Below, piece by piece: positions 6,393-48,489 of a stretch of 58,066 nucleotides of DNA (position 1 is the stretch's first letter; every line of letters starts with the position of its first letter). The notes under the pieces were generated by a model, which saw only the letters and a list, made by a program, of their open reading frames with translations, made no database searches and had not been told where the DNA came from. Position numbers and translations under genes: made by a program. The DNA is from Nitrospira sp. (GTDB lineage: Bacteria; Nitrospirota; Nitrospiria; Nitrospirales; Nitrospiraceae). The stretch is from assembly GCA_013140455.1 (NCBI GenBank), contig JABFSU010000026.1, positions 1-58,066 of the forward strand. The letters run 5' to 3'.

Positions 6393-6815
6393 ATGGCTGT
6401 GAAGACGATTGCTTCTCGCGTGGACATGCGAGGCGACACGCATATCGAGAATTTGACGAAATCGGTTCAGGCCGCCGTTGCCGATTCCCGTCTGAAGGCC
6501 GGTATCGTCACGGTCTTTGTGAAGCACACGACCGCGTCGATCATGATCATCGAAGACGAGCCGGGCATCCGCGCCGATACGAAAGCGTTCTGGGATCGGG
6601 CGGTGCCGGCCGATCCGGCGTGGCAGCACAATATGCGAAATGCCGGTGAAGACAACGGGCACAGCCATCTCCGCGGGCAGCTGCAAGGGCCGTCCGTCAC
6701 GATTCCGTTTTCCGAAGGGGCGCTGCTGCTCGGCACATGGCAGCAAATCGTCGTCGTCGATTTCGACACCAGATCCCGCACGCGCGAGCTGATCTTTCAA
6801 ATCATCGGTGAGTGA
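6393..6815 (+). CDS. yjbQ: YjbQ/UPF0047 family protein
   Basis: A 140-residue protein matching the YjbQ family over its whole length. Family marks are FVKHTTASIMIIEDEPG (about 42-58), HNMRNAGEDNGHSHLRGQL (about 80-97) and the end GTWQQIVVVDFDTRSRTREL. YjbQ proteins have a trimeric metal-binding fold; E. coli YjbQ has weak thiamine-phosphate synthase activity, but the physiological role is unsettled. The gene begins 1 bp after the HD-like gene and its stop overlaps the next start (GTGA), so the three genes are probably co-transcribed. Confidence 0.93.
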   Translation: MAVKTIASRVDMRGDTHIENLTKSVQAAVADSRLKAGIVTVFVKHTTASIMIIEDEPGIRADTKAFWDRAVPADPAWQHNMRNAGEDNGHSHLRGQLQGPSVTIPFSEGALLLGTWQQIVVVDFDTRSRTRELIFQIIGE

Positions 6816-7951
6816 CGGTGACCATGCGGCGCATCATGCGAAGCCTTGCTTGTGCGACGGCAGGAGCTGGCGTGCTCGTTCTGAGCGCGTGGGCCTTGGC
6901 GGCAGACTGGGGCAAACCGCTCGGCGGGACCTACGATGGCGCGGATGGCAGGCCCAGGCCGGTGACGCCGGCTCCGGCCGAATTAAGCCCGGACGAACGC
7001 GCGACCATGGCGGTATTCGAGCGGGCCACCAAGTCGGTGGTGTTCATCGCCAATACCGCTATTCAACGCGACATCTGGTCCTTCGATACGATGGAAGTCC
7101 CGCAGGGCTCCGGCTCCGGATTTGTCTGGAGCAAGCTGGGTTATATCGTGACGAATTTTCACGTCATCTATGGGGCCGATGCGATCAAAGTCACGCTGGC
7201 TGACCGGAGCGAGCACCAAGCCAAGATCGTCGGAGCCGATCCGGACCATGATCTGGCGGTCTTGCAGATCAAGGCTCCTGAGACTCTCCTGGAGCCGCTG
7301 GCGGTCGGGGCTTCGCATGATTTACGGGTCGGGCAAAAAGTCTTAGCCATCGGCAATCCGTTTGGGCTGGATCATACCTTGACCACGGGGGTCGTGAGTG
7401 CTTTGGGGCGCACCATCAAGTCGATGTCGAACCGGACGATCGAGGGCGTGGTGCAGACCGACGCGGCCATCAACCCCGGCAACTCCGGCGGCCCGCTGCT
7501 CGACAGCAGCGGACGGCTGATCGGCGTGAACACGCAAATTGTCAGCCCCAGCGGCGCCTACGCCGGCATCGGTTTCGCGGTTCCGGTGGACACGGTGAAT
7601 CGCATCGTGCCGGAGCTGATCAAACACGGCAAGCTCATCAGGCCGGGATTGGGCGTGTCGCTGGTGCCCGATTCCATCGCCAAGCGCTGGGGGATCAAAG
7701 GGTTGGTGATTGGAAAAGTATCACGCGGCGGGAGCGCCGATCGCGCCGGGCTGCGGGGCGCCCGCGAGACGCAAGCCGGCCGGATCGAACTCGGCGACAT
7801 CGTGGTGGCGATCGACGGGAAGCCGGTCGAGACCATCGACGGTATGATGGACCTCATGGAAGCGCGCAAGGTCGGCGATCAGGTGACGCTCGACATTATC
7901 CGTGCGAACAAGCGGCAGCAGCTCTCCTTGACCCTCCAGGCGGTCAATTAA
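6812..7951 (+). CDS. Trypsin-like serine protease with PDZ domain (HtrA/Deg family)
   Basis: A 379-residue periplasmic protease. A signal peptide covers about 1-31 (ends ALA-ADW). The catalytic triad is visible: His117 (VTNFHVIYG), Asp147 (DPDHDLAVLQ) and Ser225 (NPGNSGGPL). One PDZ domain occupies about 275-379 (GLGVSLVP, VIGKVSRGGSADRAGLRG, GDIVVAIDGKPVE). One PDZ makes it DegS-like in architecture, but it has a cleavable-looking signal rather than an obvious retained anchor. The family degrades or processes misfolded envelope proteins. The GTG start overlaps the yjbQ stop; an in-frame ATG four codons later is an alternative start. Confidence 0.93.
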   Translation: MTVTMRRIMRSLACATAGAGVLVLSAWALAADWGKPLGGTYDGADGRPRPVTPAPAELSPDERATMAVFERATKSVVFIANTAIQRDIWSFDTMEVPQGSGSGFVWSKLGYIVTNFHVIYGADAIKVTLADRSEHQAKIVGADPDHDLAVLQIKAPETLLEPLAVGASHDLRVGQKVLAIGNPFGLDHTLTTGVVSALGRTIKSMSNRTIEGVVQTDAAINPGNSGGPLLDSSGRLIGVNTQIVSPSGAYAGIGFAVPVDTVNRIVPELIKHGKLIRPGLGVSLVPDSIAKRWGIKGLVIGKVSRGGSADRAGLRGARETQAGRIELGDIVVAIDGKPVETIDGMMDLMEARKVGDQVTLDIIRANKRQQLSLTLQAVN

Positions 7952-8013: not shown

Positions 8014-9756
8014 ATGAGCGACCATCGTGCAGACGACAAGGGGCCGGGTGGCCCATCAGATACAGGGGCGGGGAAACGAGCGTCTTCGACGACGACAGAC
8101 CCGCTTGAATTGATCGAGCAATGTCTGGCTTCTTTTCCTGAGAACGATCCCCGCCAGCAGATTCTCTATAAGCTCCGGCACTCCGTCATGCTGACGGCGG
8201 CGAGCCAGCAGCAACGGGACGCGGAATTCAAAAAGATCAGTGAGGTGGTGGCAAAGCTGACGGCGCCGGCCAACCGGATCGGCACGTTGCTCGACCTGCC
8301 GGGTGAAGGCCTGGCCAGGATCGTGGTCGGCGGGGCCGAGTATTATGCGAACGTCGATCCGCGTGTGGCTGCCGTCGATTTGAAGATCGGCGCGCAGATT
8401 CTGGTGAACGAAGCCTATGCGGTCATCAAGTCGCTGGGCTATGACCTGAACGGGCCGGTACTCAAGCTGACGGAAGCGCTGCCGGACGGTCGTCTGCGTT
8501 TCGAGCAGGAGATGGGCCGCCAGTCCATGATCCTCCAACGGTCGAGCGATCTTATGGGGGTGGAGCTGAAGGCCGGCGATGAATTGCGGATCGATCCGGG
8601 GCACCGGATTGCGATCGAGAAGCTGGAAGACCGGAAGGCCAAGACCCATGTCCTCGACGAGGTGCCGACGGTGACGTGGGAGCAGATCGGCGGCCAGCAG
8701 GAAGCGATCAGTGCAATCCGCAAAGCAATCGAATATCCCTTGTTGCACGCGGAAACGTTTCAGCAGTTCAAGTTCACGCAACCCAAGGGGTTCCTGCTCT
8801 ACGGTCCGCCAGGCTGCGGAAAAACGTTGATCGGCCAGGCTGCCGCAGCCAGCCTTTCGAAGCTCGTGAGCGAGTCGATGGCGGCCGGTGGAAAAACGGA
8901 AACTCTGCCCGCGATCACCGGCGGCGCATTCCTCCATATCAAAGGGCCTGAGATTTTGAATATGTGGCTCGGGGAGTCGGAGCGGATGGTCCGCGATCTC
9001 TTTGCCAAGGCGAGGGCCCGTCGGCGTGAGGGCGCGCTCCCGTTTATTTTTATCGATGAAGCCGAGTCGATTCTGGGAACCAGACGGGCCTCGCGCTCGT
9101 TCAATATTTCGAGCACGCTCGTTCCGATGTTCTGTTCCGAGATGGACGGGATTGAATCCCTGCGGGATGTCGTGATCATCCTCGCGTCGAATCGGCCTGA
9201 CCTGATCGATCCTGCGGTGCTGCGTCCGGGGCGCATTGATCGCAAGATCAAAGTCAGCCGACCGAATCGCGAGTCGGCCGCCGAGATCCTGAAAGTCTAT
9301 CTTACGGAGGAGCTGCCGCTGGACTCTTCTGTCATCGCCGACCGCGGCGGAGACAAGACGAAGGCCTTTGCTTCGCTGGTGGATGAGGTCATCGATACCA
9401 TCTACAAACGAACGGATGAAAACCGGCTGCTTTCCATCCGCCTCCGGAGCGGCCAAAACAAGGTGCTCTATCGGGGTGATCTCGTGAGCGGAGCGATCCT
9501 TTCGTCCATCGTTCAGCGCGCGAAGGAAAAGGCGATCGATCGCATGATCCAATCCGGCCAGTCGGCAGGGCTCATCGCGAAGGATCTCTCTGATTCCGTA
9601 TTGGAAGAGTTCCGTGAAGGGGAGATGCTGCCGCCGGACGATGCGGCGGAAGAGTGGTTGAAGTTGCTCGATCATCATCCTGAACAGGTCGTCGGGGTGT
9701 CGTCCTTCCGGCGTGGCCGGCAGACGGAAGAGCGATTGATCAATCAGATTATCTAA
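8014..9756 (+). CDS. arc: Proteasome-associated AAA+ ring ATPase (ARC/Mpa type)
   Basis: A 580-residue unfoldase that should recognise UBact-tagged proteins and feed them to the 20S proteasome encoded just downstream. The order is: a short N-terminal helical segment (about 30-83), OB folds (about 85-205), then the AAA+ core with Walker A GPPGCGKT at 264-271, pore-loop region KGPEILNMWLGE near 310-321, Walker B FIFIDEA at 344-350 and an arginine-rich sensor region (LRPGRIDRKI). The protein ends INQII. It lacks the penultimate tyrosine (QYL/HbYX type) that Mpa uses to dock on the proteasome. The stop overlaps the dop start (TAATG). Family assignment is firm; the mode of docking is open. Confidence 0.94.
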   Translation: MSDHRADDKGPGGPSDTGAGKRASSTTTDPLELIEQCLASFPENDPRQQILYKLRHSVMLTAASQQQRDAEFKKISEVVAKLTAPANRIGTLLDLPGEGLARIVVGGAEYYANVDPRVAAVDLKIGAQILVNEAYAVIKSLGYDLNGPVLKLTEALPDGRLRFEQEMGRQSMILQRSSDLMGVELKAGDELRIDPGHRIAIEKLEDRKAKTHVLDEVPTVTWEQIGGQQEAISAIRKAIEYPLLHAETFQQFKFTQPKGFLLYGPPGCGKTLIGQAAAASLSKLVSESMAAGGKTETLPAITGGAFLHIKGPEILNMWLGESERMVRDLFAKARARRREGALPFIFIDEAESILGTRRASRSFNISSTLVPMFCSEMDGIESLRDVVIILASNRPDLIDPAVLRPGRIDRKIKVSRPNRESAAEILKVYLTEELPLDSSVIADRGGDKTKAFASLVDEVIDTIYKRTDENRLLSIRLRSGQNKVLYRGDLVSGAILSSIVQRAKEKAIDRMIQSGQSAGLIAKDLSDSVLEEFREGEMLPPDDAAEEWLKLLDHHPEQVVGVSSFRRGRQTEERLINQII

Positions 9757-11285
9757 TGATGCGTCTCTTTGGGATTGAAACAGAGTACGGCATTACGCGT
9801 GAAGATCTCGATGAGGTAGATCCGGTCGTCGAGTCGATGGAGCTGGTGCGGGCGCATTTGACTGCGTCGTTCGAACGGCGCTGGGACTATGGCGGCGAAG
9901 ATCCGCATGACGATGCCCGGGGGTTCCGGGTGTCCGGGCTCCAGCAGGATAAGGAAGAAGACGATTTTGCCAAGGTCGATGCGCACCGGCCTTTTTCATT
10001 TCATGAGATGAAAAGCGACCTGGTGCTGCCGAACGGCGCCCGCTTCTACAACGACCATACGCACCCGGAATATTCGACTCCGGAATGCCGGACGTTACGC
10101 GATCTGCTCGCGCACGATCGAGCCGGTGAGCGGGTCGTGCAGCGTGCAGCCGAGCGGAGAAATCGAACCCTCGGTGGCCCGCACGTGCAGCTCTATAAGA
10201 ACAATACCGACCTGCATGGCCATAGCTATGGCTGCCACGACAACTATCTCGTCTCGCGCTCGATTCCGTTTCCTCAACTGGTCGCAGGTCTGTTGCCGTT
10301 CTTAGTCAGTCGCCAGGTGATTGCCGGTGCAGGAAAAGTCGGCATCGAGGCGCAGGAGAGCGGATTCGTTCCGGGACAGTATCAGCTCTCCCAACGAGCG
10401 GATTTCATGGAAACGGATCTGAGCGTCGATACGATGCATAACCGGCCCATTCTGAATACCAGGGATGAGCCGCATGCCGATCGGGCGAAGTATCGGCGGC
10501 TGCATCTGATCATCGGCGATGCGAACATGTGCGAGTATGCGACGGCGCTGAAGGTGGGCACGACACAGATCGTCCTCGACCTGATCGATCGCGGAGGCGT
10601 TCCTGCGATTGAACTGGCCGATCCGGTTTCGGCGGTGAAGCAGATTTCGCGAGATCCTGACCTCAAGGCGGTCGTGCGGCAGAAGCAGGGGCCGGCTCTT
10701 TCCGGGGTGGAGATTCAGGAACAGTATTATACGGCGGCCAGACGCATGCTGGCCGGCGCCGATGCTGAAACGGACTGGGTGTTGCACGAATGGGGTGAGA
10801 CCCTGCGTTTGCTCACACAGGATCGCAGTCAATTGGTCGGTAAGCTCGATTGGGTGACGAAGCTGTGGCTGCTGGAGACCTTCGTCCGGGAAGAGCGAAT
10901 CGGCTGGGATAATCCCTGGCTGGCGAGTCTGGATCTCGAATATCACAACGTGAATGCCGATCGTGGGCTGTATCTCGGCCTGGAAGCCGAAGGCAAGGCC
11001 TGGCGCATGACGACGGAGGCCGACATTGAGCTGGCCATGTCTGCCGGCCCTCACGATACCCGCGGCGGGTTGCGCGGATTGTGTGTGCGGCGGTTTCCCG
11101 ATCAGATCAAATCGATGCAGTGGGAACGTATTCAGTTCTTGGGCGGGTTGAAGGGGAAGACCCTGGAGATGGGCGACCTGTTTGATCCGACCGAGGTGAG
11201 GGCCTGTGCCGAGATCTTTGAACGGGCGGCTTCTCCGGCCGATGCGGTTGTCGCCTGGGATATAAGAAAGGAATTACAGTCATGA
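9756..11285 (+). CDS. dop: Dop: depupylase/UBact deconjugase
   Basis: A 509-residue member of the PafA/Dop carboxylate-amine ligase-like family. It is Dop rather than PafA because it carries the extra 'Dop-loop' insertion (about 57-86, after RWDYGGEDPHDDARGF) and sits in the dop position (ATPase-dop-pup-prcBA-pafA). GIETEYG (6-12) begins the ATP/metal site; the conserved acid is Asp100 in FYNDHTHPEYSTPEC. Dop normally deamidates Pup-Gln and also cleaves Pup from substrates. Because the modifier here already ends in Glu, only the deconjugating role is expected. It overlaps ubact by 4 bp (ATGA). Start could be the second Met. Confidence 0.93.
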   Translation: MMRLFGIETEYGITREDLDEVDPVVESMELVRAHLTASFERRWDYGGEDPHDDARGFRVSGLQQDKEEDDFAKVDAHRPFSFHEMKSDLVLPNGARFYNDHTHPEYSTPECRTLRDLLAHDRAGERVVQRAAERRNRTLGGPHVQLYKNNTDLHGHSYGCHDNYLVSRSIPFPQLVAGLLPFLVSRQVIAGAGKVGIEAQESGFVPGQYQLSQRADFMETDLSVDTMHNRPILNTRDEPHADRAKYRRLHLIIGDANMCEYATALKVGTTQIVLDLIDRGGVPAIELADPVSAVKQISRDPDLKAVVRQKQGPALSGVEIQEQYYTAARRMLAGADAETDWVLHEWGETLRLLTQDRSQLVGKLDWVTKLWLLETFVREERIGWDNPWLASLDLEYHNVNADRGLYLGLEAEGKAWRMTTEADIELAMSAGPHDTRGGLRGLCVRRFPDQIKSMQWERIQFLGGLKGKTLEMGDLFDPTEVRACAEIFERAASPADAVVAWDIRKELQS

Positions 11286-11476
11286 TCTACCAGATGATGC
11301 CTGAGCGACGCGAGGGGCCGGTTGATCCGATGCCGAAGGCGCCGAGCCCGTCTGAAGAGGGCGGCGGGCCACGACGCCCCGATACCGGGTCGCCCGACAA
11401 GGACAGTTTGATGAAGCGGATGAAGAAGGTCGATCCGAAGCAGGCCGAGCGGTACCGGCAGCGGACAGGGGAATAA
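11282..11476 (+). CDS. ubact: UBact, Pup-like protein modifier
   Basis: A 64-residue, highly charged and Pro/Gly-rich protein, expected to be disordered. It lies between dop and prcB, exactly where actinobacteria have pup. The C-terminal half (LMKRMKKVDPKQAERYRQ) is the helix-forming ATPase-binding part and the end is RTGE. The R-T/S-G-E/Q ending is the hallmark described for UBact in Nitrospirae and other Gram-negative phyla, in place of the GGE/GGQ of Pup. A terminal Glu means its side chain can be ligated to substrate lysines by PafA without prior deamidation. It is co-translated with dop. Confidence 0.93.
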   Translation: MIYQMMPERREGPVDPMPKAPSPSEEGGGPRRPDTGSPDKDSLMKRMKKVDPKQAERYRQRTGE

Positions 11477-11478
11477 GG

Positions 11479-11571
11479 ATGGCTGCCGAGCCGAGGTTTT
11501 TGCTCGCCGAACGCGCGTCCTCAGAAGGACCTCGTTCGATGCGCGCCGGAACCCCCGGCTACGGCGGCCAT
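11479..11571. repeat. 93-bp imperfect palindrome between ubact and prcB
   Basis: The 5' arm starts ATGGCTGCCG two bases after the ubact stop codon. The 3' arm ends GGCGGCCAT at 11571 and is its near complement along some 43 nt, with several mismatches and short bulges. The apex is GTCCT-caga-AGGAC at 11517-11530. No reading frame of note occupies it, and it fills most of the only sizeable gap in the proteasome cluster. As RNA it would form one long hairpin. It could be a repeat element, an RNA stabiliser that lets UBact be made in excess over the protease, or a partial terminator. Confidence 0.7.
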
Positions 11572-11599
11572 CATAGAAAAGAAGGGGTAAGGTAAGAGG

Positions 11600-12373
11600 A
11601 TGGGGATGCAGGGAGATTTTTTTCAGTTGTTGAAGGAGCAGGGTTATCAATTCGGTCAGCCTGCGGCTGCCGGATCGGGTGTCGATCTGCCGAGCGCGAC
11701 GACGATTCTCGCGTTCAAGTATCGTGATGGCGTCCTCGTTGCCGGTGATCGCCGGGCGACGGCCGGCAATATGGTGATGTACGACCGGACGGACAAGGTC
11801 CTCGAAATCGATCGCCATAGCGTGATGGCCATCGCGGGGGTTCCGGCTACGGCCTATGAAATGGTGCGGATCCTGGAACACTCGTTCAAATACTACCGGC
11901 GGACCCAGCTCCAGGAGCTGAGCTTCGAGGGAAAATTGCGGGCGGTATCGAAGTTGTTGAAGGAAAATGTCGCCGCAGCCCTTGCGGGAACCGGCGCCGT
12001 AGTGCCGGTGTTTGCCGGTTATGACTTCGAGCAGGGCGCGGCCAAGATATTCTTCTACGACATTCTCGGGGCCGAGTTTGAAGGGGTCGAATATGCGGTG
12101 TCAGGTTCCGGGTCGCCGACGATCCGCGGCATTCTGCACTATGTGAATACCTGGGGCGAGCGTCCCCTGGCTGTGATGACGGAAGAAGAGGCGACCGTGC
12201 AAGCATTGCGTCTCTTAACCAGTGCAGCCGAGTTTGATTCGGCGACCGGCGGTGTGAATCGGGAGGCGAGTCTCTATCCGGTCATCAAGTTCATTACGCA
12301 GGAAGGGCTGAGGACCGTCCCGGACTCCACGTTGAAACAATTGTTCGAAACGAAGGTGTCGCGCCATGTATGA
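11600..12373 (+). CDS. prcB: 20S proteasome beta subunit
   Basis: A 257-residue catalytic proteasome subunit. A 33-residue propeptide precedes the nucleophile Thr34 (SATTILAF), which becomes Thr1 after autoprocessing. The residue before it is Ala rather than the usual Gly. Family marks follow: VLVAGDRRATAGNMV (about 45-60) with the lysine in TDKVLEID, and SGSGSPTIRG near 173-182. PrcB forms the two inner heptameric rings of the 20S core. The stop overlaps the prcA start by 8 bp, in keeping with equal synthesis of the two subunits. Start is the GAGGATG-associated ATG at 11600; the Met two codons later is an alternative. Confidence 0.96.
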   Translation: MGMQGDFFQLLKEQGYQFGQPAAAGSGVDLPSATTILAFKYRDGVLVAGDRRATAGNMVMYDRTDKVLEIDRHSVMAIAGVPATAYEMVRILEHSFKYYRRTQLQELSFEGKLRAVSKLLKENVAAALAGTGAVVPVFAGYDFEQGAAKIFFYDILGAEFEGVEYAVSGSGSPTIRGILHYVNTWGERPLAVMTEEEATVQALRLLTSAAEFDSATGGVNREASLYPVIKFITQEGLRTVPDSTLKQLFETKVSRHV

Positions 12374-13190
12374 AGAGCCGTATCGGTGGGTAGAAGCAGT
12401 CGGCAATCGCCGGACCTATCTCGATGAGCAGTTTAGGCAGGGAAGTCCGGTGGTAGCCCTGGGCTACGACGGGGGCATTCTCTTGACGACCGTCAGCAAG
12501 GGGACGTCGAAGCTGTACGAGATTTATGATCGCATCGCTCTGGGAGGTATGGGGCATCCAGCGGATCTGGAAAAGCTCCGATTCAGCCTATTGGAGATGG
12601 CGCATACCGAGGGGTTCAACCGGTCCCCGTCAGACGTGACCGGCTCGCGGTTGGTGAAGTACGGGATTGCTCCGGTCATCAAACAGGCTTTTGAAGAAGT
12701 CTATAAGGCGCCGTTCATCGTCAGGATTGTCCTGGCCGAGTTGGGTCAGAAGCCGGAGAAGGATACGCTGCTCACGATCAACTATGATGGGACGTTCGAA
12801 GAGCTTAAGGAATATGCCGTGCTGGCCGCAACGAAGCAGGCGCAGGCGCGGATGCAGGAGTATCTGAAGGCTCAGAAACCGTCTCCCTGCCCGCTTGAGC
12901 AGGGTTTGCAGTTGGCTCTGCGCACCTGGGCGATCGGATCGCTTGCGCATCAGCAGGATTCTGCAGAGGCGTCGGCTGATGGCGGGCATGAGACCAGTCG
13001 CGAGACGATCGCATCAATTCCCGATCAGACTGCGTTGCTCGCGCATCTCCGTGAGGTGCTGGCGGACAAGACGCTGGAATGCGCGGTCCTGGAGCGGCAG
13101 CAGGTCGGTTCATCCAAATATCGCGCGCTGAAGCCGGCCGAGCTCGCACGGTTGCTTCCCGGCGACTTTCAGACCGTTGTGAATCGCTAA
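12366..13190 (+). CDS. prcA: 20S proteasome alpha subunit
   Basis: A 274-residue alpha-ring subunit, non-catalytic (no exposed Thr after a propeptide). The N-terminus MYEEPYRWVEAV forms the gate region. SPVVALGYDGGILLTTVSKG and the following helices match the proteasome fold. The last 90 residues (from about 185) are an extension rich in Ala/Gln/Glu and less conserved. PrcA heptamers cap the PrcB rings and are the docking surface for the ring ATPase. It overlaps prcB by 8 bp and is followed by pafA after 1 bp. Confidence 0.93.
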   Translation: MYEEPYRWVEAVGNRRTYLDEQFRQGSPVVALGYDGGILLTTVSKGTSKLYEIYDRIALGGMGHPADLEKLRFSLLEMAHTEGFNRSPSDVTGSRLVKYGIAPVIKQAFEEVYKAPFIVRIVLAELGQKPEKDTLLTINYDGTFEELKEYAVLAATKQAQARMQEYLKAQKPSPCPLEQGLQLALRTWAIGSLAHQQDSAEASADGGHETSRETIASIPDQTALLAHLREVLADKTLECAVLERQQVGSSKYRALKPAELARLLPGDFQTVVNR

Positions 13191-13191
13191 C

Positions 13192-14676
13192 ATGCTGAAC
13201 CGAATATTCGGGCTTGAAACGGAGTACGGACTCCTTGTCAACCAGGATCGCCCCGATCACTCACCGACATGGTTTGCCCACCAGATCCGCAATTATCTGT
13301 TCCAGGTTCAGCACCGAGGGGTGCTCGACCTGCACCATCGCGGGCACGATGAGCCTCCGGGGAACGGAGGCTTTCTCACGAATGCCGGACGGATGTATCT
13401 CGACATGGGGCACCTCGAATATGCCTCTCCCGAATGTCAGTCGCTCGTGGATCTCGTCGCGGTCGATCGGGCCGGGGATCAATTGTTACAGGAGGCGATT
13501 GAGGCTTTGGGTTTTGGCGAGACCATTTCGCTCATCAAAAACAACATTGACCATGAGACCGACGCGACGTTTGGATCGCACGAGAACTATCTGGTCACGC
13601 GCCGGTTTCCCTTCAGTCGAAGAGGGTTGAGTCCTCTCGTCACCTTCCTGGTCACCAGACAGATTTTCACCGGTTCCGGCCGTATCGGGGCGGCGAATCC
13701 GCAGGATGCCTGGATTCAGGTGGATCGTCTGATCGTGCCGCGCGGGGCGCTGCGTTCGCACGGTTCCCAGACGATGATTCCCTATCAGATTTCACAGCGG
13801 GCCGATCATATCGTGAATGATTTTTTCGAGTGGGTGCAGCAGAACCGCGCGATCGTGAACACGCGGGACGAACCGCTGGCAGATCCCAATCAATACCGGC
13901 GCATTCATTTGCTCCTCGGCGACTCGAACATGGCCGAGGTCGCCACGGCGCTCAAAATGGGTACGACGGGATTGGTGTTGCAGTTGATCGAAGAGGGGAA
14001 GGCGCCGGCCGGCGTGGAGCTCGATGAGCCGGTCGAAACACTGCAAGAAATCTCACAAGATCAAGAGCGCCAATGGATCGTGCGGTTGCAATCAGGTAAG
14101 ACGATTTCAGCGATCGATATTCAGGAGCAATTTCTCGCGGCGGCGCGGGATGCCTACGCCGGGCAGGATGAGGAGACGGACTGGGTGCTCGATCAGTGGG
14201 AATCAGTCCTGACGGATTTGCGCGGTGACTATGCCAAGCTGGTCGGGCGTGTCGACTGGGCCTCCAAATTGTGGCTGCTCGAATCCTTTCGTGAAGCCGA
14301 ACAGTTGGAATGGCAGGATCCGGCGCTCAAGAGTCTCGACCTCGAATATCATAATTTGCGCGCGGATCGCGGCCTCTATTTTGGGCTGCTCGAAGAGGGG
14401 CGAGTGCCTCGCATGACGACGGACAAGGCGATTGCCCTTGCCATGGAACATCCTCCACGCAATACGCGCGCCTTCGGCCGGGGAGAGCTGATTCGACATT
14501 TATTAGCGGCAGGTCCGGCTGAGGCGCTTGATGATCAGGCTCAGGGCCGGCAGTTCTTTCCGGCCTATGTCATCAATTGGTCGATCATTCAGGTCGACGG
14601 GCGTACACCGTTTCCCATGCCCGATCCCTTCAAAACCTATGTTCAGGATGTTCGCACCTACCTTCAATCTGCTTGA
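13192..14676 (+). CDS. pafA: PafA: UBact/Pup ligase
   Basis: A 494-residue ligase of the PafA/Dop family that joins the C-terminal Glu of the modifier to substrate lysines using ATP. GLETEYG (7-13) starts the nucleotide site; the catalytic-base Asp is Asp71 in MYLDMGHLEYASPEC. It lacks the Dop-loop of its paralogue at 9756-11285, with which it shares FGSHENYLV/YGCHDNYLV, QISQRAD and NTRDEP motifs. It lies last in the order ATPase-dop-ubact-prcB-prcA-pafA and begins 1 bp after prcA. No pafBC regulators or bpa-like factor are seen nearby. Confidence 0.95.
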   Translation: MLNRIFGLETEYGLLVNQDRPDHSPTWFAHQIRNYLFQVQHRGVLDLHHRGHDEPPGNGGFLTNAGRMYLDMGHLEYASPECQSLVDLVAVDRAGDQLLQEAIEALGFGETISLIKNNIDHETDATFGSHENYLVTRRFPFSRRGLSPLVTFLVTRQIFTGSGRIGAANPQDAWIQVDRLIVPRGALRSHGSQTMIPYQISQRADHIVNDFFEWVQQNRAIVNTRDEPLADPNQYRRIHLLLGDSNMAEVATALKMGTTGLVLQLIEEGKAPAGVELDEPVETLQEISQDQERQWIVRLQSGKTISAIDIQEQFLAAARDAYAGQDEETDWVLDQWESVLTDLRGDYAKLVGRVDWASKLWLLESFREAEQLEWQDPALKSLDLEYHNLRADRGLYFGLLEEGRVPRMTTDKAIALAMEHPPRNTRAFGRGELIRHLLAAGPAEALDDQAQGRQFFPAYVINWSIIQVDGRTPFPMPDPFKTYVQDVRTYLQSA

Positions 14677-29605: not shown

Positions 29606-30310
29606 ATGCTGACGATTGCGCTCTCAAAGGGGAAGTTGATCGAGCCGACGCTGGAACTGTTCCGTCTGGCGGGCTATGAAAGTGCTGCGCTGGTGGGGGA
29701 AAGCCGGCGGTTGATTTTCCCTTGTCCTGAGATCGACACCACCTTCCTGGTTGTGCGTCCGAGTGATGTCCCGACCTATGTGGAATATGGCGGCGCGGAC
29801 GCCGGGATCGTCGGAAAAGACGTGTTGATGGAGCAGGACAGTGACGTCTATGAGCCGTTGGATTTACTGTTTGGAGCGTGTAGAATCTCGGTCGCTGCGC
29901 TCCGGGCCGAGGTCGCGTGCGACCGGCTTTCATCCAAGGTGCGCGTCGCGACGAAATATCCCAGGATCACCGAGCGCTTTTTCAACCAGCGCGGGGTCCC
30001 GGTCGAAATCATCAAGCTGTACGGCTCAATTGAGTTAGCGCCGGTTGTGGGACTGGCAGACCGGATCGTCGATCTCGTCGAGACCGGAAGTACGCTCAAG
30101 GCGCACGATCTGGTCGAAGTGGATCTGATTGCCCAGTCGACCGCACGTTTCATTGCGAACCGGGCAAGTCTCAAGCTCAAACATGCACCACTGATGGATA
30201 TGATTCGCCGGCTGCGGAAGGCCGTGGCGGCTTCTCAGAAAGCAGCATCGATGCCCCGTGGTAAAGCAGGATCGAAACGAGCCTCCACCTCAGCGAAGGA
30301 TCGCGCATGA
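29606..30310 (+). CDS. hisG: ATP phosphoribosyltransferase, short form
   Basis: A 234-residue HisG, first enzyme of histidine synthesis (ATP + PRPP). MLTIALSKGKLIEPTLELF, YGGADAGIVGKDVLME, RVATKYPRIT and the PRPP loop DLVETGSTLKAHDL are present. It lacks the C-terminal histidine-binding regulatory domain of long HisG, so it should act with a HisZ partner, not encoded in this window. Instead it has a Ser/Lys-rich tail of about 28 residues. The ATG at 29606 follows GAGG; an apparent upstream extension runs into the repeat and is not believed. It overlaps hisD by 4 bp. Confidence 0.95.
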   Translation: MLTIALSKGKLIEPTLELFRLAGYESAALVGESRRLIFPCPEIDTTFLVVRPSDVPTYVEYGGADAGIVGKDVLMEQDSDVYEPLDLLFGACRISVAALRAEVACDRLSSKVRVATKYPRITERFFNQRGVPVEIIKLYGSIELAPVVGLADRIVDLVETGSTLKAHDLVEVDLIAQSTARFIANRASLKLKHAPLMDMIRRLRKAVAASQKAASMPRGKAGSKRASTSAKDRA

Positions 30311-31590
30311 AAATTCTCACGCAGGCTGATCGATCGTTTGCCGCGACCGTGAAGAAGGTCGCCTTGCGCGGGGCGGTCCAGAGCAGTGCGGTTGAAAAAA
30401 CCGTCAGGACGATTCTCCAAGCAGTCCAACGCGGCGGCGATCGCGCGGTCTTGCGCTATACGAAACAGTTTGATCGTGTGGCGCTCAAGGCCGAGGCGCT
30501 CAGAGTATCTCCCGAAGAAATCAAAGAGGCCTATCACCATATCCGGAAAGACGAAGGTGATGCCCTGCGGTTCGCCGCGCAACGGGTCACCGCGTTTCAC
30601 GAGCGCCAGCGTACGAAGACCTGGATGTATCAGGATGATACCGCCACGTTGGGGCAGGTAGTCACGCCGGTGGATGCGGTGGGCGTTTATGTGCCGGGTG
30701 GCAAAGCGGTCTATCCGTCGTCGGTGCTGATGTGCGCCATTCCCGCTAAAGTTGCCGGCGTCGAGCGAATTGTGATGGTTACGCCGCCGCAGAAGGGCCC
30801 TATTAATCCCTATTTGCTGGTGGCGGCGGATATTGCCGGGGTGACGGAGATCTATCGCGTCGGCGGCGTGCAGGCGGTTGCGGCCCTTGCCTATGGCACC
30901 AAGACCATCGCGAAGGTCGACAAAATTGTCGGGCCGGGAAATATCTACGTGGCGACGGCGAAGCGCCTGCTCTATGGAACAGTCGGCATCGACATGATCG
31001 CCGGGCCGAGCGAATTGCTGGTGGTCGCCGATGACGATGCGACGCCCGCTCATGTCGCCGCGGATCTGCTTTGCGAAGCCGAGCATGACGAAGATGCGCA
31101 GGTCTTTCTGGTGACGACTTCCGAGCGGCTCGCCAAAGATGTGTCGAAATTGATCGAGAGTCAGTTGAAAGGGCTGCAACGGGAGAAGATCGCCTCGAAG
31201 TCGATTGCGCGGCACGCGGTGGCCTTTGTGGTCACGACTATGGATGAGGCCATTGAGGTGGCGAACGAGATTGCTGCTGAGCACTTGACGCTCTCGGTGG
31301 ACAATCCCTTCGACTATCTGGAGAAAGTCCGCCATGCGGGGGCGTTATTCTTGGGCCGGCATACACCGCCGTCTGTAGCGGATTACATTGCCGGGCCGAA
31401 TCACGTGTTGCCGACCGGCGGGTCTGCGCGGTTTTTCTCGGCCTTATCCGTCCATGACTATGTGAAGACCAGCAATATCGTCCATTACACGAAAGAGGAG
31501 CTGAGGAAGGTGAAAGATCATCTGGTGCGTCTCGCGCATATCGAAGGATTCGATGCGCATGCCAAGTCGGCTGAAAGCAGGTTCTCATGA
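30307..31590 (+). CDS. hisD: Histidinol dehydrogenase
   Basis: A 427-residue zinc enzyme that oxidises histidinol to histidine in two NAD-dependent steps. The signature [17 protein letters not shown] (about 213-229), [15 protein letters not shown], and the catalytic E-H pair region AAEHLTLSV are visible, as is the C-terminal [13 protein letters not shown]. It overlaps both hisG and hisB by 4 bp (ATGA), so the three are translated together. Confidence 0.97.
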
Positions 31591-32195
31591 AGAAGCGCGG
31601 ATCGGCAGCGCGGCAGGCCTCGATTCACCGCGCAACGAAAGAAACCGATATTTCCGTCGAGTGGACGATCGACGGCAGCGGGCAGGGGAAAATCGAAACG
31701 GGTATCCGGTTCTTCGATCACATGCTGGAACTGCTGGCAAAGCACGGCTTCTTCGACCTGACGGTCAAAGCCAAGGGCGACATCGATATCGATGAGCATC
31801 ACACGGTGGAGGACGTCGGGATCGTCATGGGCAAGGCGTTGCACCAAGCGCTGGGCGAGAAGGCGGGGATCAAGCGGTTCGGGTTTGCCTCGGCGCCGCT
31901 TGACGAAACGCTTGCGCAAATCACGGTGGATCTCAGCGGCAGGCCATATCTTGTCTACAACGTGGCCTTGCCGGATCGGAAGATCAAGGCGTTTGACTTG
32001 GGTTTGTTCGAGGACTTTTTCCAGGCTTTCGTGACGCATGGCGGATTGAATCTGCACGTGAATCTCATGTACGGCCGCAACCCGCATCACATCATGGAAG
32101 CCATTTTCAAAGGGTTGGCCAAAGCCCTTGATCAGGCCACCATGCCGGAAGAACGGCTCGCGGGGAAAGTCCTTTCGACAAAGGGAATGCTGTAA
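31587..32195 (+). CDS. hisB: Imidazoleglycerol-phosphate dehydratase
   Basis: A 202-residue monofunctional HisB (no phosphatase domain). The metal-binding signatures are [16 protein letters not shown] and [13 protein letters not shown] in the first half, and [15 protein letters not shown] with [10 protein letters not shown] in the second. It converts imidazole glycerol phosphate to imidazole acetol phosphate. It follows hisD with an ATGA overlap and is the last gene before a probable terminator at 32229-32260. Confidence 0.97.
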
Positions 32196-32228
32196 GCCAA
32201 CGAGCATAAGTCGACCAATAGGCAGATG

Positions 32229-32265
32229 AAGGGGGCAGGCTGTGTAGAGCGTGTCCCCTTTTTAT
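32229..32265 (+). terminator. Probable terminator between hisB and hisH
   Basis: AAGGGGGCA pairs with TGTCCCCTT over 9 bp (one G-U pair) around a 14-nt loop, followed by TTTATTT. It divides the histidine genes into hisGDB and hisH onward. Confidence 0.5.
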
Positions 32266-32338
32266 TTCCAGAGACGGGAGTGGCAGGATCAGCCCGGTTG
32301 CGGTATTGTTACAACTTTCCGGGAGCTGCCAGAATTTC

Positions 32339-32947
32339 ATGATCGCGATCATCGACTACGGCATGGGCAATTTGCGCAGTGTCCACAAGGCGTTTGAGGC
32401 CGTCGGCCATCAGGCGGTGGTGACGCGCGATGCGGGCGTGATCAAGAGCGCCAGCCATGTCGTGTTGCCTGGCGTCGGGGCATTCGGCGACTGCATGGCA
32501 AACCTCGATCAGTATGGGCTGGTCGAGTCCGTTCGCGTGGCGATTCAATCGGGTAAACCGTTCCTGGGAATTTGTCTCGGGCTTCAATTGCTGTTCACAG
32601 AAAGTGAAGAGTTCGGCATGCACAAGGGCTTGGACATTATTCCCGGCAAGGTGCGGAGGTTTGCCGCTGATCCCACATTGAAAGTTCCCCATATGGGATG
32701 GAATCAAGTGAGCGTGCAGCGTGCCTGCCCGGTATTTGCCGGAATCCCGAACGGTTCTAATTGGTATTTCGTGCATTCTTATTTCGTCGATCCGGTCGAG
32801 AAGCAGATTGCGTCGACAACGACGACCTATGGGATTCCTTTTGTCTCGAGCATTTGGAAGGACAACGTTGTGGCTTGCCAATTTCACCCTGAGAAGAGCC
32901 AGACAGTTGGCCTGCAACTGATTAAGAATTTCGGGGCCTGGACGTGA
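32339..32947 (+). CDS. hisH: Imidazole glycerol phosphate synthase, glutamine amidotransferase subunit
   Basis: A 202-residue class I glutaminase that feeds ammonia to HisF. The nucleophile Cys is in GKPFLGICLGLQLLF (about 75-89) and the His-x-Glu pair is in CQFHPEKSQ near the C-terminus. MIAIIDYGMGNLRSVHKA is the standard N-terminus, which fixes the ATG at 32339 rather than a start 11 codons upstream. It overlaps the lipoprotein gene by 4 bp. Confidence 0.96.
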   Translation: MIAIIDYGMGNLRSVHKAFEAVGHQAVVTRDAGVIKSASHVVLPGVGAFGDCMANLDQYGLVESVRVAIQSGKPFLGICLGLQLLFTESEEFGMHKGLDIIPGKVRRFAADPTLKVPHMGWNQVSVQRACPVFAGIPNGSNWYFVHSYFVDPVEKQIASTTTTYGIPFVSSIWKDNVVACQFHPEKSQTVGLQLIKNFGAWT

Positions 32948-33690
32948 GCGCCGCGACGTTACATGTTTGGAGGATAGGCTTGGTGTGCCTGGCCGGAGCT
33001 GTCTTGGCCGGGGCGGGGTGTAGCGGGTCGAAGGTGATGACGAAGGCGTCGAATGAGCTGCCGCGCTATCAGGTGAAGACCATGGCCTTCGTCCCGTTCA
33101 CGACGATCGCCACGCCGCAGGTCCGTGATCAGGGAGATCAGTTCATGTCGGCGCCGCAAAGCGTCCGCCGGTCGGATATTTCGGTCGGGGTGCCGTCGAA
33201 TGTGGAGCCTCCGCCTCGGCAGACTGTTGTTGTACCGGCTGCTGCGGCAGAGAAGGTGACGCAGCTCTTCTGGACCCGGTTACGGAATCGCGCTGGTGTT
33301 ACGGTATCGTCGCCGGGCGATACGGGGAAAGCCGCGGCCTCCCTTGGCGAAGATCCGCTGAAGACCACGCCTGACATGACGGCGGCGGCCGTGGCCAAGA
33401 AACTAAAACAGGATGCCGCTCTGATCGGGCAGGTGTTGGTCTATCAGGAGCGAGTGGGCAGCCGGCTCGGGGCGAACCCTCCAGCCTCTGTCGGGTTTGA
33501 GGTCAAAGTGGTGGCAGCGGATGGGCAGGTGTTGTGGGTCGGTAACTACTATGAGCGCCAACGGCCGATGACCGAAGATATTATGGGGTTCATTCATCGC
33601 TGGGCGTTCGTCACAGCGGATGAGCTGGCGGAGTACGGCGTGGATGAAGTGTTGAAAGAATTTCCATTCGGAGCAGGGGGAGAGAAGTAA
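32944..33690 (+). CDS. Putative lipoprotein embedded in the histidine operon
   Basis: A 248-residue predicted lipoprotein: signal peptide with lipobox LAGAGC and acylated Cys26. The mature part has a beta/alpha pattern (YQVKTMAFVPFTTIA; ALIGQVLVYQERVGSR; VGFEVKVVAADGQVLWVGNYYE) like small outer-membrane-associated lipoproteins of the DUF799/GNA1162 or curli CsgG-like kind, but I cannot assign a family. The GTG start overlaps hisH (GTGA) and hisA begins 1 bp after its stop, so it is translated within the operon. A link to histidine synthesis is not evident. Confidence 0.8.
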   Translation: MSAATLHVWRIGLVCLAGAVLAGAGCSGSKVMTKASNELPRYQVKTMAFVPFTTIATPQVRDQGDQFMSAPQSVRRSDISVGVPSNVEPPPRQTVVVPAAAAEKVTQLFWTRLRNRAGVTVSSPGDTGKAAASLGEDPLKTTPDMTAAAVAKKLKQDAALIGQVLVYQERVGSRLGANPPASVGFEVKVVAADGQVLWVGNYYERQRPMTEDIMGFIHRWAFVTADELAEYGVDEVLKEFPFGAGGEK

Positions 33691-33691
33691 C

Positions 33692-34420
33692 GTGCTTGTG
33701 ATTCCAGCCATTGATTTGAAAGACGGTCGTTGTGTGCGGTTGCGCCAGGGCGATATGGCCGCGGAGACGGTGTACTCGGAGGATGTCCCGGCGGTGGCCC
33801 GGAAATGGCAGCAGGGCGGGGCCAGCCTCATTCATGTCGTTGATTTGAACGGCGCGGTCGATGGGGAGCCAAGGAATCTTCCGCAGATCGAAGCGGTGAT
33901 GAAGACGGTGAGTGTGAAAGTACAGGTCGGCGGAGGGATTCGGACGATTGAGACGGTGCGGCGTTACTTGAATGCGGGTGTCTCGCGTGTGGTGCTCGGG
34001 ACCGCGGCGCTCACGGATCGCGCGTTTCTTGAACAGGCCTGCCGGGAATTTCCCCGGCGCATTCTGCTCGGACTCGACGCGCGTGACGGCAAGGTGGCGG
34101 TGAAGGGGTGGACGGCCGTATCGGATACGAAGGCGATCGATCTGCTCAAAGACCTTGCCGGACTTGCGATCAGTGCGGTGATCTATACCGACATTTCGCG
34201 CGATGGCATGCTGAGCGGGCCTAATCTTCCGGCATTACAAGAGGTGGTTGAACACTCAGCCTTCCCTGTCATTGCTTCTGGCGGCATCACGCGTGTGGAG
34301 GACCTGCAGGCCGTTCATGCGCTCGGCCCTCGCATTGAAGGCGCGATCGTCGGGAAGGCGCTGTACGACGGGAAATTGGATTATGCAACGGCTGTGGCGG
34401 CGCTGGGCGCACGATGTTGA
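33692..34420 (+). CDS. hisA: ProFAR isomerase (HisA)
   Basis: A 242-residue TIM-barrel isomerase. [19 protein letters not shown] with its catalytic Asp near residue 8, [29 protein letters not shown] and the second catalytic Asp in [14 protein letters not shown] are all present. PriA-type dual function with TrpF cannot be ruled out by eye. It starts with GTG and overlaps hisF by 7 bp. Confidence 0.96.
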
Positions 34421-35196
34421 CGAAACGTATCATTCCTTGCCTCGATGTCAAAGACGGCCGGGTGGTGAAGGGCGTCAGCTTTGTCAATCTTCGTGATGCG
34501 GGCGATCCGGTGGAAGTGGCGGCGGCCTACGATCGCGAAGGGGCGGACGAGCTGTGCTTTCTCGATATCACCGCGTCGCACGAAAATCGAAAGACCATTA
34601 TCGATGTGGTCGAACAAACCGCCGCGCGCGTGTTCATGCCTGTGACTGTCGGCGGCGGGGTTCGGACGCTGGACGATATCCGAGCGTTGCTCAATGCCGG
34701 CGCCGACAAGGTGAGCATCAATACGGCGGCGGTTCAACGGCCGGAATTTGTGCGAGAAGCGGCGCAGAAATTCGGGACCCAGTGTATCGTCGTCGCAATC
34801 GATGCTAAGCGAAGCGCTACGCCTGGTCGATGGGAAGTCTTTACGCATGGCGGGCGAAAACCCACCGGGCTCGATGCGGTGGAGTGGGCGAAGCGGATGG
34901 AAACCTACGGGGCGGGAGAGATCCTGCTCACGAGCATGGATCAAGACGGTCAGCAAAGCGGCTATGATTTAGGTCTGACGGCGGCGGTGTCAGAAACCGT
35001 TTCGATTCCCGTGATCGCCTCAGGCGGAGTGGGGACGCTCGGGCATCTCTATGACGGGTTTACGAAGGGGAAGGCGGACGCGGTGTTGGCTGCGTCGATT
35101 TTTCACTTCCGGACGTATACGATTCCGCAGGCCAAAGAATATTTACGAGAGAAAGGCGTGCCGGTTCGGCTTGATCAAGCCGCGCCGGTTGCGTGA
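34414..35196 (+). CDS. hisF: Imidazole glycerol phosphate synthase, cyclase subunit
   Basis: A 260-residue TIM-barrel cyclase. [17 protein letters not shown] (catalytic Asp near 11), [27 protein letters not shown], the second catalytic Asp in [14 protein letters not shown] and [15 protein letters not shown] are present. Together with HisH it makes imidazole glycerol phosphate and AICAR. It is followed after 4 bp by hisIE. Confidence 0.97.
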
Positions 35197-35200
35197 CATC

Positions 35201-35872
35201 ATGGGACAAGGCGACGCCGCACCGGCCTTCAAATTTGATGCGCAGGGGCTGATTCCCGCGGTTGTGCAGGACTGGCTGGACGGAACGGTCCTGATGGTCG
35301 GGTATATGAACCAGGACGCGTTGAATCAAACCGTGGCTACCAAAATAGTTCACTTCTGGAGCCGGTCGCGCCAGAAGCTCTGGGAAAAGGGTGAAACCTC
35401 GGGGAACAAACTCCACGTCAAAACCCTCTTTGTGGATTGCGATCGCGATACGATTCTTGTGAAGGCGCAACCGGTCGGGCCGACGTGTCACACGGGCGAG
35501 CGGGCCTGTTTCTTCACGTCTCTAGATGAGTCTGGTGCAATAGTCACCGAAAAAACTAACGAAGCTGCAGGCGGTATTCTTGAGGCGGTGCTGCGAACGA
35601 TCGAAACGCGTCGTGCCAATCCCCAGCCGGGGTCCTACACGACGAAGCTCTTCGAAGGAGGCCACGATAAGATCCTCAAGAAAGTGGCGGAGGAAGCCGG
35701 CGAAGTGCTGCTGGCGTCCAAGGGTGGGAAGAAAGAGGAAATCGTTTACGAGATTGCCGATCTGTTTTTTCATACGCTCATGGTCTTGGGTTACCATGAC
35801 ATTCCTCTGTCCGTGATCTATCAAGAATTGGCGAAGCGTTTTGGGAAGTCCGGTCTCAGGACGGAACAATAA
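35201..35872 (+). CDS. hisIE: Bifunctional PRA-CH hydrolase / PRA-PP pyrophosphatase
   Basis: A 223-residue fusion. The HisI part (about 1-120) has LMVGYMNQDALNQT, HFWSRSRQKLWEKGETSGN, the metal ligands in VDCDRDT and the Cys-His motif PTCHTGERACFF. The HisE part (about 125-215) has the MazG-like EEAGEVLLASK and EIADLFFHTLMV. The ATG at 35201 is used; an upstream in-frame extension lies within hisF and is not believed. A HIT gene follows 14 bp later. Confidence 0.95.
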   Translation: MGQGDAAPAFKFDAQGLIPAVVQDWLDGTVLMVGYMNQDALNQTVATKIVHFWSRSRQKLWEKGETSGNKLHVKTLFVDCDRDTILVKAQPVGPTCHTGERACFFTSLDESGAIVTEKTNEAAGGILEAVLRTIETRRANPQPGSYTTKLFEGGHDKILKKVAEEAGEVLLASKGGKKEEIVYEIADLFFHTLMVLGYHDIPLSVIYQELAKRFGKSGLRTEQ

Positions 35873-35886
35873 GCAGGGAGGGCACG

Positions 35887-36231
35887 GTGAGTACCTGCAT
35901 TTTTTGCCGTATCGTCGATGGCAGCATTCCCGCAAAAGTGGTGTATCAGGACGAGCATACATTGGCGTTCGATGATGTCAGCCCTCAGGCGCCTGTCCAT
36001 ACGCTGGTGATTCCAAAACGGCATGTCGCAGCGATTCAGGATCTCGGCGAGTCCGATCAAGCGTTACTTGGCCGATTGCTCCTGACTTGTCGAAAGGTCG
36101 CTACGGACAAGGGGCTGGCCGAGCCGGGTTATCGTATTGTGGCCAATACCGGTCGGGATGGGGGCCAGTCCGTGTTTCACCTGCATTTCCACGTGCTTGG
36201 CGGTCGTCACCTCGGCTGGCCTCCGGGCTAG
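35887..36231 (+). CDS. HIT family protein (HINT-like)
   Basis: A 114-residue HINT-type histidine triad protein. The zinc-ligand Cys pair CIFC (4-7) is in STCIFCRIVDGSIPAKV, and the triad is His98, His100 and His102 (VFHLHFHVLGGRH). HINT proteins hydrolyse nucleoside phosphoramidates. The GTG start follows AGGGAGGGC. This protein is shorter and closer to standard HINT than the HIT protein at 4281-4709. Proximity to hisIE may be incidental, though this neighbour pair recurs in bacteria. Confidence 0.94.
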   Translation: MSTCIFCRIVDGSIPAKVVYQDEHTLAFDDVSPQAPVHTLVIPKRHVAAIQDLGESDQALLGRLLLTCRKVATDKGLAEPGYRIVANTGRDGGQSVFHLHFHVLGGRHLGWPPG

Positions 36232-36247
36232 CCGGGCTCCCTTATAA

Positions 36248-36275
36248 TTGACAGGGTTTCAAGCGGTCTGATACC
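36248..36275 (+). promoter_or_regulatory. Promoter-like boxes upstream of dnaG
   Basis: A perfect TTGACA at 36248-36253 is followed after 16 nt by GATACC (36270-36275), a weak -10. A perfect TATAAT overlaps the -35 at 36243-36248 but has no good -35 itself. One of these may drive dnaG-rpoD. Confidence 0.3.
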
Positions 36276-36354
36276 CTGACCAGTCAAATTTTCCGATCAT
36301 TTACAGGCTAGCTCGTCGGTCGACCTTGACGGGTGCAAAGGAGCCAGGACTCTC

Positions 36355-42723: not shown

Positions 42724-43158
42724 GCGCGAGAGAGGAGACTGGGTGATCGCTCGGCACCTTTGGGTGCCGGGAGGAAAGTCCGGACTCCATGGGCGGGGCG
42801 CTGGGTAACTCCCAGGCGGAGCAATCCGACACCTGCACCACAGAAAACAAACCGCCGATGGCCAAGGCGACGGGATCCTATCTAGTCGCTACGGATCAGG
42901 TAAGGGTGAAACGGCGGGGTAAGAGCCCACCGCAGGGATGGTGACATCGCTGGCACGGTAAGCGTCGCCCGGTGCAAGGCCAAATAGGAAGACACGTGTG
43001 GCGCTCGCAAGGGCGCGGCACAACGACTGGCCCGGTCGGGGTCTTCGGGTAGGTCGCTTGAGGTTCGGGGTAACTCGAATCCCAGAGAAATGATCACCCA
43101 GGCATGAACTCCGGTTCATGCGGGACAGAATCCGGCTTATAGGTTTCCTCGCTCGCGC
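42724..43158 (+). ncRNA. rnpB: RNase P RNA (class A)
   Basis: The catalytic RNA of RNase P, which matures tRNA 5' ends. The conserved GAGGAAAGTCCGGACTCC is at about 42771-42788, ACAGAAAACAAACCGCC in the P4-side segment, GGGTGAAACGGCGGGGTAAGAGCCCACCG, and ACAGAATCCGGCTTATAGG at about 43124-43142. The ends pair as an extended P1: GCGCGAG-a-GAGGAGAC at 42724-42739 with GTTTCCTC-g-CTCGCGC at 43143-43158, directly followed by TTTTTT. Boundaries follow that pairing and the upstream promoter. About 435 nt. Confidence 0.96.
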
Positions 43159-48230: not shown

Positions 48231-48232
48231 GG

Positions 48233-48489
48233 CGACGACGAGGAGTAGTACGCGAGCCGCACAGATTTGAGAGAGCCGGCGGGTGGTGCAAGCCGGTCTG
48301 TGTGTCGCCGAACTCGCCTCTGAGCCGAATCCGTGAACATCGAGTAATGGATTCCGCTTCGCCCTCGTAAGGGGCCAATGAAGGGTGATGGATGACCACA
48401 TGTCATTCGTTGCCGAACCAGGGTGGTACCACGAAGCGCATGAAGCCTTCGTCCCTGACCGTAATGGGGGGCGAAGGCTTTTTCTATTT
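48233..48489 (+). promoter_or_regulatory. T-box riboswitch, leucine type (specifier CTC)
   Basis: A transcription-attenuating tRNA sensor upstream of leuA. The distal Stem I motif GAGAGAGCCGGCGGGTGG...GCAAGCCGG is at 48269-48296. The specifier loop is GAA-CTC-GCCTCTGAGC, with the Leu codon CTC at 48313-48315. A Stem III hairpin GAATCC...GGATTC follows at about 48327-48354. The T-box sequence AGGGTGGTACCACG is at 48421-48434 and the terminator at 48445-48489. Uncharged tRNA-Leu(GAG) would stabilise the antiterminator and turn leuA on. The stretch 48231-48635 otherwise holds only the 124-bp repeat. No clear promoter was found; transcription may enter from pssA. Confidence 0.9.
48445..48489 (+). 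terminator. Regulated terminator of the leucine T-box
   Basis: AGCCTTCGTCCC (48445-48456) pairs with GGGGCGAAGGCT (48469-48480) over 12 bp with one G-U pair, loop of 12 nt, then TTTCTATTT. It competes with the antiterminator that contains the T-box sequence at 48421-48434. Confidence 0.85.

Follow-up and report, generated by a model that had tools for sequence, protein, structure and literature searches.

A UBact-type proteasome cluster of Nitrospira, its Pup-type companion and a candidate tyrosine-free ATPase-core interface

The closest described relatives of the gene cluster examined here are the UBact conjugation-proteasome system, reportedly set out by Lehmann et al. in 2017, and the Pup-proteasome system of actinobacteria. 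The cluster encodes a ring ATPase, Dop, the modifier UBact, the proteasome subunits PrcB and PrcA, and PafA. It lies in a 58,066-base stretch of Nitrospira DNA (the window, meaning the whole stretch analysed), which forms contig C32 of a 143-contig genome totalling 3,789,341 bases, 95.5% complete. No known difference separates it from the UBact system: UBact scores above its model cut-offs, and PafA, Dop, the ATPase, PrcA and PrcB accompany it. With the actinobacterial system it shares gene set and order, folds and catalytic residues, but it differs in tag family, ATPase tail, hairpin and alpha-ring surface. The window cluster is a complete UBact-type system of a kind already known, and what deserves follow-up is the phylum-wide pairing with Pup together with a tyrosine-free, charge-swapped interface between ATPase and core. 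The comparisons below make it fairly likely that the window encodes a complete UBact pathway working beside a complete Pup pathway, with matched ATPase-core pairs and docking on the UBact side by an aliphatic tail and a basic hairpin.

Several reports touch on parts of this picture. The figure 2 legend of a 2012 review (PMC3511204) gives Leptospirillum ferrooxidans two whole systems of identical context and very different sequence. As here, the second tag of that pair lacks GGE, but the legend calls both tags Pup and concerns one species, whereas the present pairing covers 123/395 genomes of the phylum and comes with docking differences. The same review describes the ARC of proteasome-free actinobacteria, an ATPase of the same family without the docking motif; core genes are missing there, while here they sit in the operon. 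Cpa and PA28, according to PMC6017811, are proteasome partners that lack a penultimate tyrosine, like the window ATPase, but they are not tag receptors of the Mpa/ARC type. Single alpha and beta subunits are the Nitrospirales rule in a 2026 review (PMC13022661), which our PrcB counts contradict (two or more in 62/79 genus genomes). The open-licence literature searched, outside which most subscription papers lie, yielded neither a statement on Pup/UBact co-occurrence across Nitrospira nor a description of UBact ATPases without the tyrosine motif.

Gene content and families of the UBact-type cluster

All six open reading frames (ORFs) lie on the plus strand at 8014-14676 in a single tight operon (Table 1), in agreement with a preliminary description made from this DNA alone, which had placed the six genes in one tight cluster. 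That description gave junctions of 1-8 bp except for one gap, and the measured values bear it out: ATPase and Dop overlap by 1 bp, Dop and UBact by 4 bp, and PrcB and PrcA by 8 bp, PrcA and PafA are 1 bp apart, and a 123-bp gap separates UBact from PrcB. Its view that the gene set and order are those of actinobacterial pupylation, with UBact as the modifier, also holds. UBact exceeds the cut-offs of both Pfam (PF20513, E 1.3e-21, 76.5 bits, cut-off 27.8) and the NCBIfam equivalog (NF033388, 79.9 bits, cut-off 35). Pup (PF05639) is not the modifier in this cluster, since the 64-aa protein matches UBact alone in Pfam up to E 10. UBact-type clusters account for 119 of 145 loci examined (locus L134 of genome G206 was excluded), and 101 of the 119 keep the full ATPase-Dop-UBact-PrcB-PrcA-PafA order, more than chance would give; in most of the remaining 18 the contig stops short or the simple ORF picker made a wrong call. 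Some genomes occur in two locus sets: the 98 UBact-side ATPases analysed below comprise 86 distinct sequences, and the 119 rows of UBact-side PrcA (PrcA1) comprise 107.

Pfam recognizes an AAA domain and two proteasomal-ATPase OB domains in the ATPase, Pup_ligase in the Dop and PafA homologues (1.1e-164 and 1.8e-131), and Proteasome in PrcB and PrcA (3.8e-27 and 2.5e-07). Apart from UBact, the five window proteins match the actinobacterial NCBIfam equivalog models for Mpa, Dop, PafA, PrcA and PrcB, all below their cut-offs (the ATPase scores 443 bits against 504.75 for pup_AAA), and are therefore diverged relatives of the actinobacterial families. The AlphaFold2 (AF2) model of the ATPase has a pLDDT of 78, a predicted coil of 38 residues (helix 46-83) and a tail, residues 567-580, with pLDDT below 50. 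That of PrcA reaches 89.6, and its best Foldseek matches are M. tuberculosis PrcA. The UBact-side alpha subunit (274 aa at 12366-13190) is longer than the Pup-side one (228 aa) and contains a disordered stretch at about residues 201-220 in the AF2 model.

Residues associated with catalysis are retained. In the alignment, Thr34 of window PrcB falls on residue 1 of the mature PrcB chains of actinobacteria, and T1, T2, D17 and K33 are conserved in all 116 collected loci. An aspartate equivalent to C. glutamicum PafA Asp64, which we take to be catalytic, occurs in 118/118 UBact-side PafA (PafA1) and 108/108 UBact-side Dop (Dop1) sequences. UBact ORFs end in Glu in 88 and in Gln in 24 of 112 cases, and the window protein ends in TGE. 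The Dop-loop is described in PMC7947786 as present in Dop and absent in PafA; a simple motif for it is found in 97/108 Dop1 but in 0/118 PafA1 sequences.

A Pup-type system in the same genome and across Nitrospirota

A search of the genome for further proteasome activators, a check proposed in the preliminary description, did not find bpa but brought up an entire second set of ATPase and core genes. On the minus strand of contig C109, at 30048-36376 (L060:6049-12377), lies a cluster of Mpa, Dop, PrcB, PrcA and PafA with no tag gene within it. This system was at first a candidate for a tagless one, which we rejected when Pup was found on the same contig 43 kb away (C109:79491-79679, locus L081; 78.7 bits, cut-off 27), with the C-terminus YVQKGGE; by eye, recJ-like and H+-pyrophosphatase-like genes flank it. 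The C109 ATPase ends in TGHYL, with a penultimate tyrosine. The two clusters are 28-40% identical (ATPase 38%, Dop 40%, PrcB 36%, PrcA 28%, PafA 35%). The Pup-type system is complete on the other contig, so UBact in this genome adds to Pup and does not replace it. The window system is complete with six intact genes, as first described, but that account covers only part of what the cell encodes. Its remark that bpa and pafBC are not seen nearby stands and extends to the genome, which has no match to PF10759 (bpa) and none to PF13280 (WYL, for pafBC) at its 95.5% completeness. The absence of bpa is only tentative because of that completeness and because 0/14 control genomes scored above the PF10759 cut-off.

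The pairing recurs throughout the genus, where the window cluster is one member of a common system. UBact is present in 66/79 genus genomes (44/49 when only genomes with completeness of 90% or more and contamination of 5% or less are counted), and both tags are found in 63/79. In a PrcB search most genomes show a second PrcB, whose identity is mostly 35-39%: there are two or more matches in 62/79, one in 15 and none in 2. Twenty-five Pup-type clusters were read, 24 with a full-length ATPase. Pup lies inside none of the 15 from within the genus, whereas outside it, including the Leptospirillum family, Pup stands between Dop and PrcB in 9/10. UBact, the second PrcB and Pup share a single contig in G001, G003, G039, G063 and G064; in the single-contig genome G003 they lie at 761, 3354 and 3405 kb. 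The two tags end alike by eye (Y-x-Q-[KR]-x-G-[EQ]), but a profile comparison gives a probability of 0.4% that UBact is a detectable Pup homologue, and homology is not claimed.

The wider survey covered 395 genomes drawn evenly from Nitrospirota, the phylum to which its results apply. UBact occurs in 133 and Pup in 183; both are present in 123, UBact only in 10, Pup only in 60 and neither in 202 (Fisher p 3e-43, uncorrected for relatedness). From these counts, UBact in Nitrospirota mostly comes on top of Pup. Of the both-tag genomes, 117 have four PafA/Dop homologues, 4 have three and 2 have two; of the Pup-only genomes, 45 have two, 9 have three, 4 have one and 2 have four. Six UBact-only genomes carry two such homologues and four carry four, and in these last four Pup was probably missed. 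The Leptospirillum-like genomes G096 (one contig of 2,559,538 bases, Leptospirillum family), G139 and G146 have UBact only, with two PafA/Dop homologues and no Pup. Since both systems are found on the Nitrospira side as well as in the Leptospirillum family (f22 by its family code), the pair may be older than the split between them.

A few genomes depart from this pattern. PafA/Dop homologues occur with neither tag found in G044, G127 and G403, two of which are at least 90% complete. At locus L040 (G024:C35:115000-132000) part of the UBact cluster is repeated in tandem. Its two UBact genes lie 2.5 kb from each other, separated by a fragment that matches PafA at its start and Dop at its end; the genome is listed with 6% contamination. 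A second UBact candidate in G206 scored 26.1 bits, below the cut-off, with its motif within a 126-aa ORF, and was taken as chance.

In an IQ-TREE phylogeny of 63 Dop/PafA proteins, Dop1, Dop2, PafA1 and PafA2 each form a single clade with starred support. The Pup-side enzymes group with three actinobacterial rows (96/93), and UBact-side Dop1 and PafA1 join each other (96/93), apart from the Pup-side and actinobacterial enzymes. This grouping would fit a ligase that arose twice, but a topology test does not reject a single PafA clade (AU p 0.111). With that value, a long PafA1 branch and only three actinobacterial rows, we do not claim that the UBact ligase and its own Dop had separate origins.

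The ATPase-core interface and competing explanations

Docking of Mpa on the 20S core takes place, according to PMC8755798, through a C-terminal GQYL with its penultimate Tyr and through the beta-hairpin ANGDK (501-505), which contacts charged residues of the alpha N-terminal helices. Bpa uses the same motif, its carboxylate placed on a conserved lysine and its Tyr stacked on a conserved arginine (PMC6466877). The UBact-side ATPases depart from this scheme: a penultimate tyrosine occurs in 0/98, and the residue is Ile or Val in 98/98, across at least five family codes (tails NQII 53, RAIE 11, SQII 5, GQII 5, and others). Pup-side ATPases of the same phylum have the penultimate Tyr in 24/24 (GHYL 23, GHYF 1). 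As aligned, the UBact-side tail is constrained and not decayed.

Both partners differ in charge as well. The hairpin 499-505 carries a net +2 to +4 in 98/98 UBact-side ATPases and 0 in 24/24 Pup-side ones. On the core side, residues 18-28 of the alpha subunit (numbered as in M. tuberculosis) sum to a negative charge in 115/119 PrcA1 and to +2 or +3 in all 25 Pup-side subunits (PrcA2); where PrcA2 is basic, at 21, 22 and 28, PrcA1 for the most part has acidic residues (21, 22) or a small one (28). Lys52 is conserved in 119/119 PrcA1, and Ser54, two residues further on the same strand, is replaced by Tyr or Phe in 119/119. We take Lys52 to be the pocket lysine, and residue 54 presumably faces the pocket. 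The pattern reads as co-adaptation of the two partners in which the carboxylate anchor is preserved.

Every component of the two pathways is encoded and conserved. From the families, PafA1 would join the C-terminal Glu of UBact to protein lysines, and Dop1 would remove UBact and deamidate the Gln form. The ring ATPase would bind the tag, unfold the protein and thread it into the PrcA1/PrcB1 barrel. From the alignments, it would dock on its own core by the tail with penultimate Ile/Val, its carboxylate reaching the conserved pocket lysine, while the basic hairpin would face the acidic alpha-ring surface. On the Pup side the GHYL tail and opposite charges would serve, and the difference in docking would separate the pathways at the ATPase-core step. 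The arrangement is probably one of two parallel pathways whose ATPase-core pairs are insulated from each other. The broader proposal, that most Nitrospira hold two complete, mutually insulated pathways with orthogonal docking codes (Tyr tail, neutral hairpin and basic alpha ring versus aliphatic, basic and acidic), is as easily doubted as believed on the present comparisons.

Some observations weigh against this interpretation. PrcA1 keeps Arg16-Arg17 (118/119), which leaves its N-terminal helix only partly acidic, and 32/119 have a basic residue at position 26. The swaps, as they appear in the alignments, are one fixed difference between two clades and not independent covariation. ATPases of organisms without proteasome genes also lack the docking motif, according to PMC3511204, and its absence from the window ATPase could therefore mean that there is no docking.

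The chief rival takes up this last point: the window ATPase would act on UBact-tagged proteins as an unfoldase without docking on the proteasome, and the window core would be fed by another activator or by the Mpa that belongs to the Pup-type cluster. The two docking elements known for Mpa, the tyrosine tail and the ANGDK hairpin, are indeed gone, as the tail motif is in the proteasome-free organisms of that review. However, the core genes share the operon and have intact active sites, the tail is held to Ile/Val across families, and the pocket lysine never varies although the surrounding surface has changed. Moreover, G096, G139 and G146, with UBact alone, have no Pup-type Mpa to borrow, judged by their two PafA/Dop homologues and lack of Pup. 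We regard this rival as unlikely.

A second rival lets the two systems share parts, either as mixed alpha/beta rings or through ligases or ATPases that accept both tags. Their common folds, gene order and similar tag endings would permit it, but the alpha subunits are only 28% and the beta subunits 36% identical, the surface charges are opposite and the tags are not detectably homologous, which makes sharing distinctly improbable. Less credible still, and very hard to sustain, is a non-degradative mark, with the linkage to core genes merely inherited. No substrate or degradation is known for UBact here, as such a role would allow; yet throughout the class and in the Leptospirillum family the operon retains its core genes, and their catalytic residues are intact. 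That the Pup pairing is an assembly or binning artefact, as the different contigs of the two clusters in a 143-contig genome might suggest, is already refuted by the five genomes with UBact, second PrcB and Pup on one contig; the two tags together in 123/395 genomes also speak against it.

If docking by an aliphatic tail and a basic hairpin is correct, the UBact family would define a tyrosine-free docking mode for proteasomal ATPases of the Mpa/ARC type. Two natural proteasome pathways in one cell would make it directly testable how an ATPase recognizes its core, and also which features of the tag select the enzyme and what leads nitrifying bacteria to retain both systems. The tail and charge swaps point to residues for an exchange experiment.

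The intergenic hairpin and other features of the window

Table 1. Positions of cluster features in the window
Feature	Position	Strand	Details and basis
Ring ATPase (Mpa/ARC family, UBact type)	8014..9756	+	580 aa; Pfam, NCBIfam, AF2 model
Ring ATPase parts	8014..9756	+	Short coil, two OB domains, AAA, beta-grasp, aliphatic tail
ATPase beta-hairpin, residues 476-482 (RLRSGQN)	9439..9459	+	Alignment; position of Mpa 499-505
ATPase final four residues, NQII	9742..9753	+	Alignment; position of GQYL/GHYL docking motif
Dop homologue with Dop-loop	9756..11285	+	509 aa; Pfam, NCBIfam, Dop-loop motif
UBact modifier, C-terminus YRQRTGE	11282..11476	+	64 aa; PF20513 and NF033388 above cut-offs
Long hairpin in UBact-PrcB gap	11478..11572	+	Possible mRNA processing or stability element; RNA fold
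PrcB proteasome beta subunit	11600..12373	+	257 aa; predicted catalytic Thr34 at 11699-11701
PrcA proteasome alpha subunit	12366..13190	+	274 aa; Pfam, NCBIfam, AF2, Foldseek
PrcA residues		+	Pocket Lys49 12510-12512; Tyr51 12516-12518; acidic Asp20-Glu21 12423-12428
PafA homologue (predicted UBact ligase) without Dop-loop	13192..14676	+	494 aa; Pfam, NCBIfam, alignment

The 123-bp gap between UBact and PrcB (11477-11599) folds into one long hairpin: the RNA fold of 11470-11605 reaches -61.6 kcal/mol, a value that none of 200 shuffles equals. The comparison of gaps was confined to loci carrying a single UBact and a single PrcB, and 68 of 111 were used (31 were under 50 bases; identical gaps and those above 300 bases were dropped). 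Among these distinct gaps, 33/68 have z below -2, against 3/68 control stretches, and they fall into several unrelated sequence groups. The other 35/68 do not pass that threshold, including that of the closest relative, L042 (z +0.58), where the hairpin is not kept. A possible role is that of an element setting the ratio of tag to core. Two other identities for the gap were rejected. Reading by eye gives an open frame of some 38 codons from 11479 on, but L042 has no start at that point, which speaks against a small gene; against a high-copy repeat stands a single further match in the same genome at E < 0.01 (78% over 46 bp). In a promoter scan, sites were no commoner than chance (2 vs 2.1).

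Upstream of the cluster, an HtrA/DegP-type serine protease gene (6812-7951) on the same strand ends 62 bp before the ring ATPase. Farther along the window, a class A bacterial RNase P RNA lies at 42731-43155 (281 bits). A T-box leader at 48226-48459 (96.2 bits, cut-off 93) stands just upstream of the 2-isopropylmalate synthase gene leuA (48636-50183), with leuB at 50668-51741, a case of T-box control of leucine genes in a Gram-negative bacterium.

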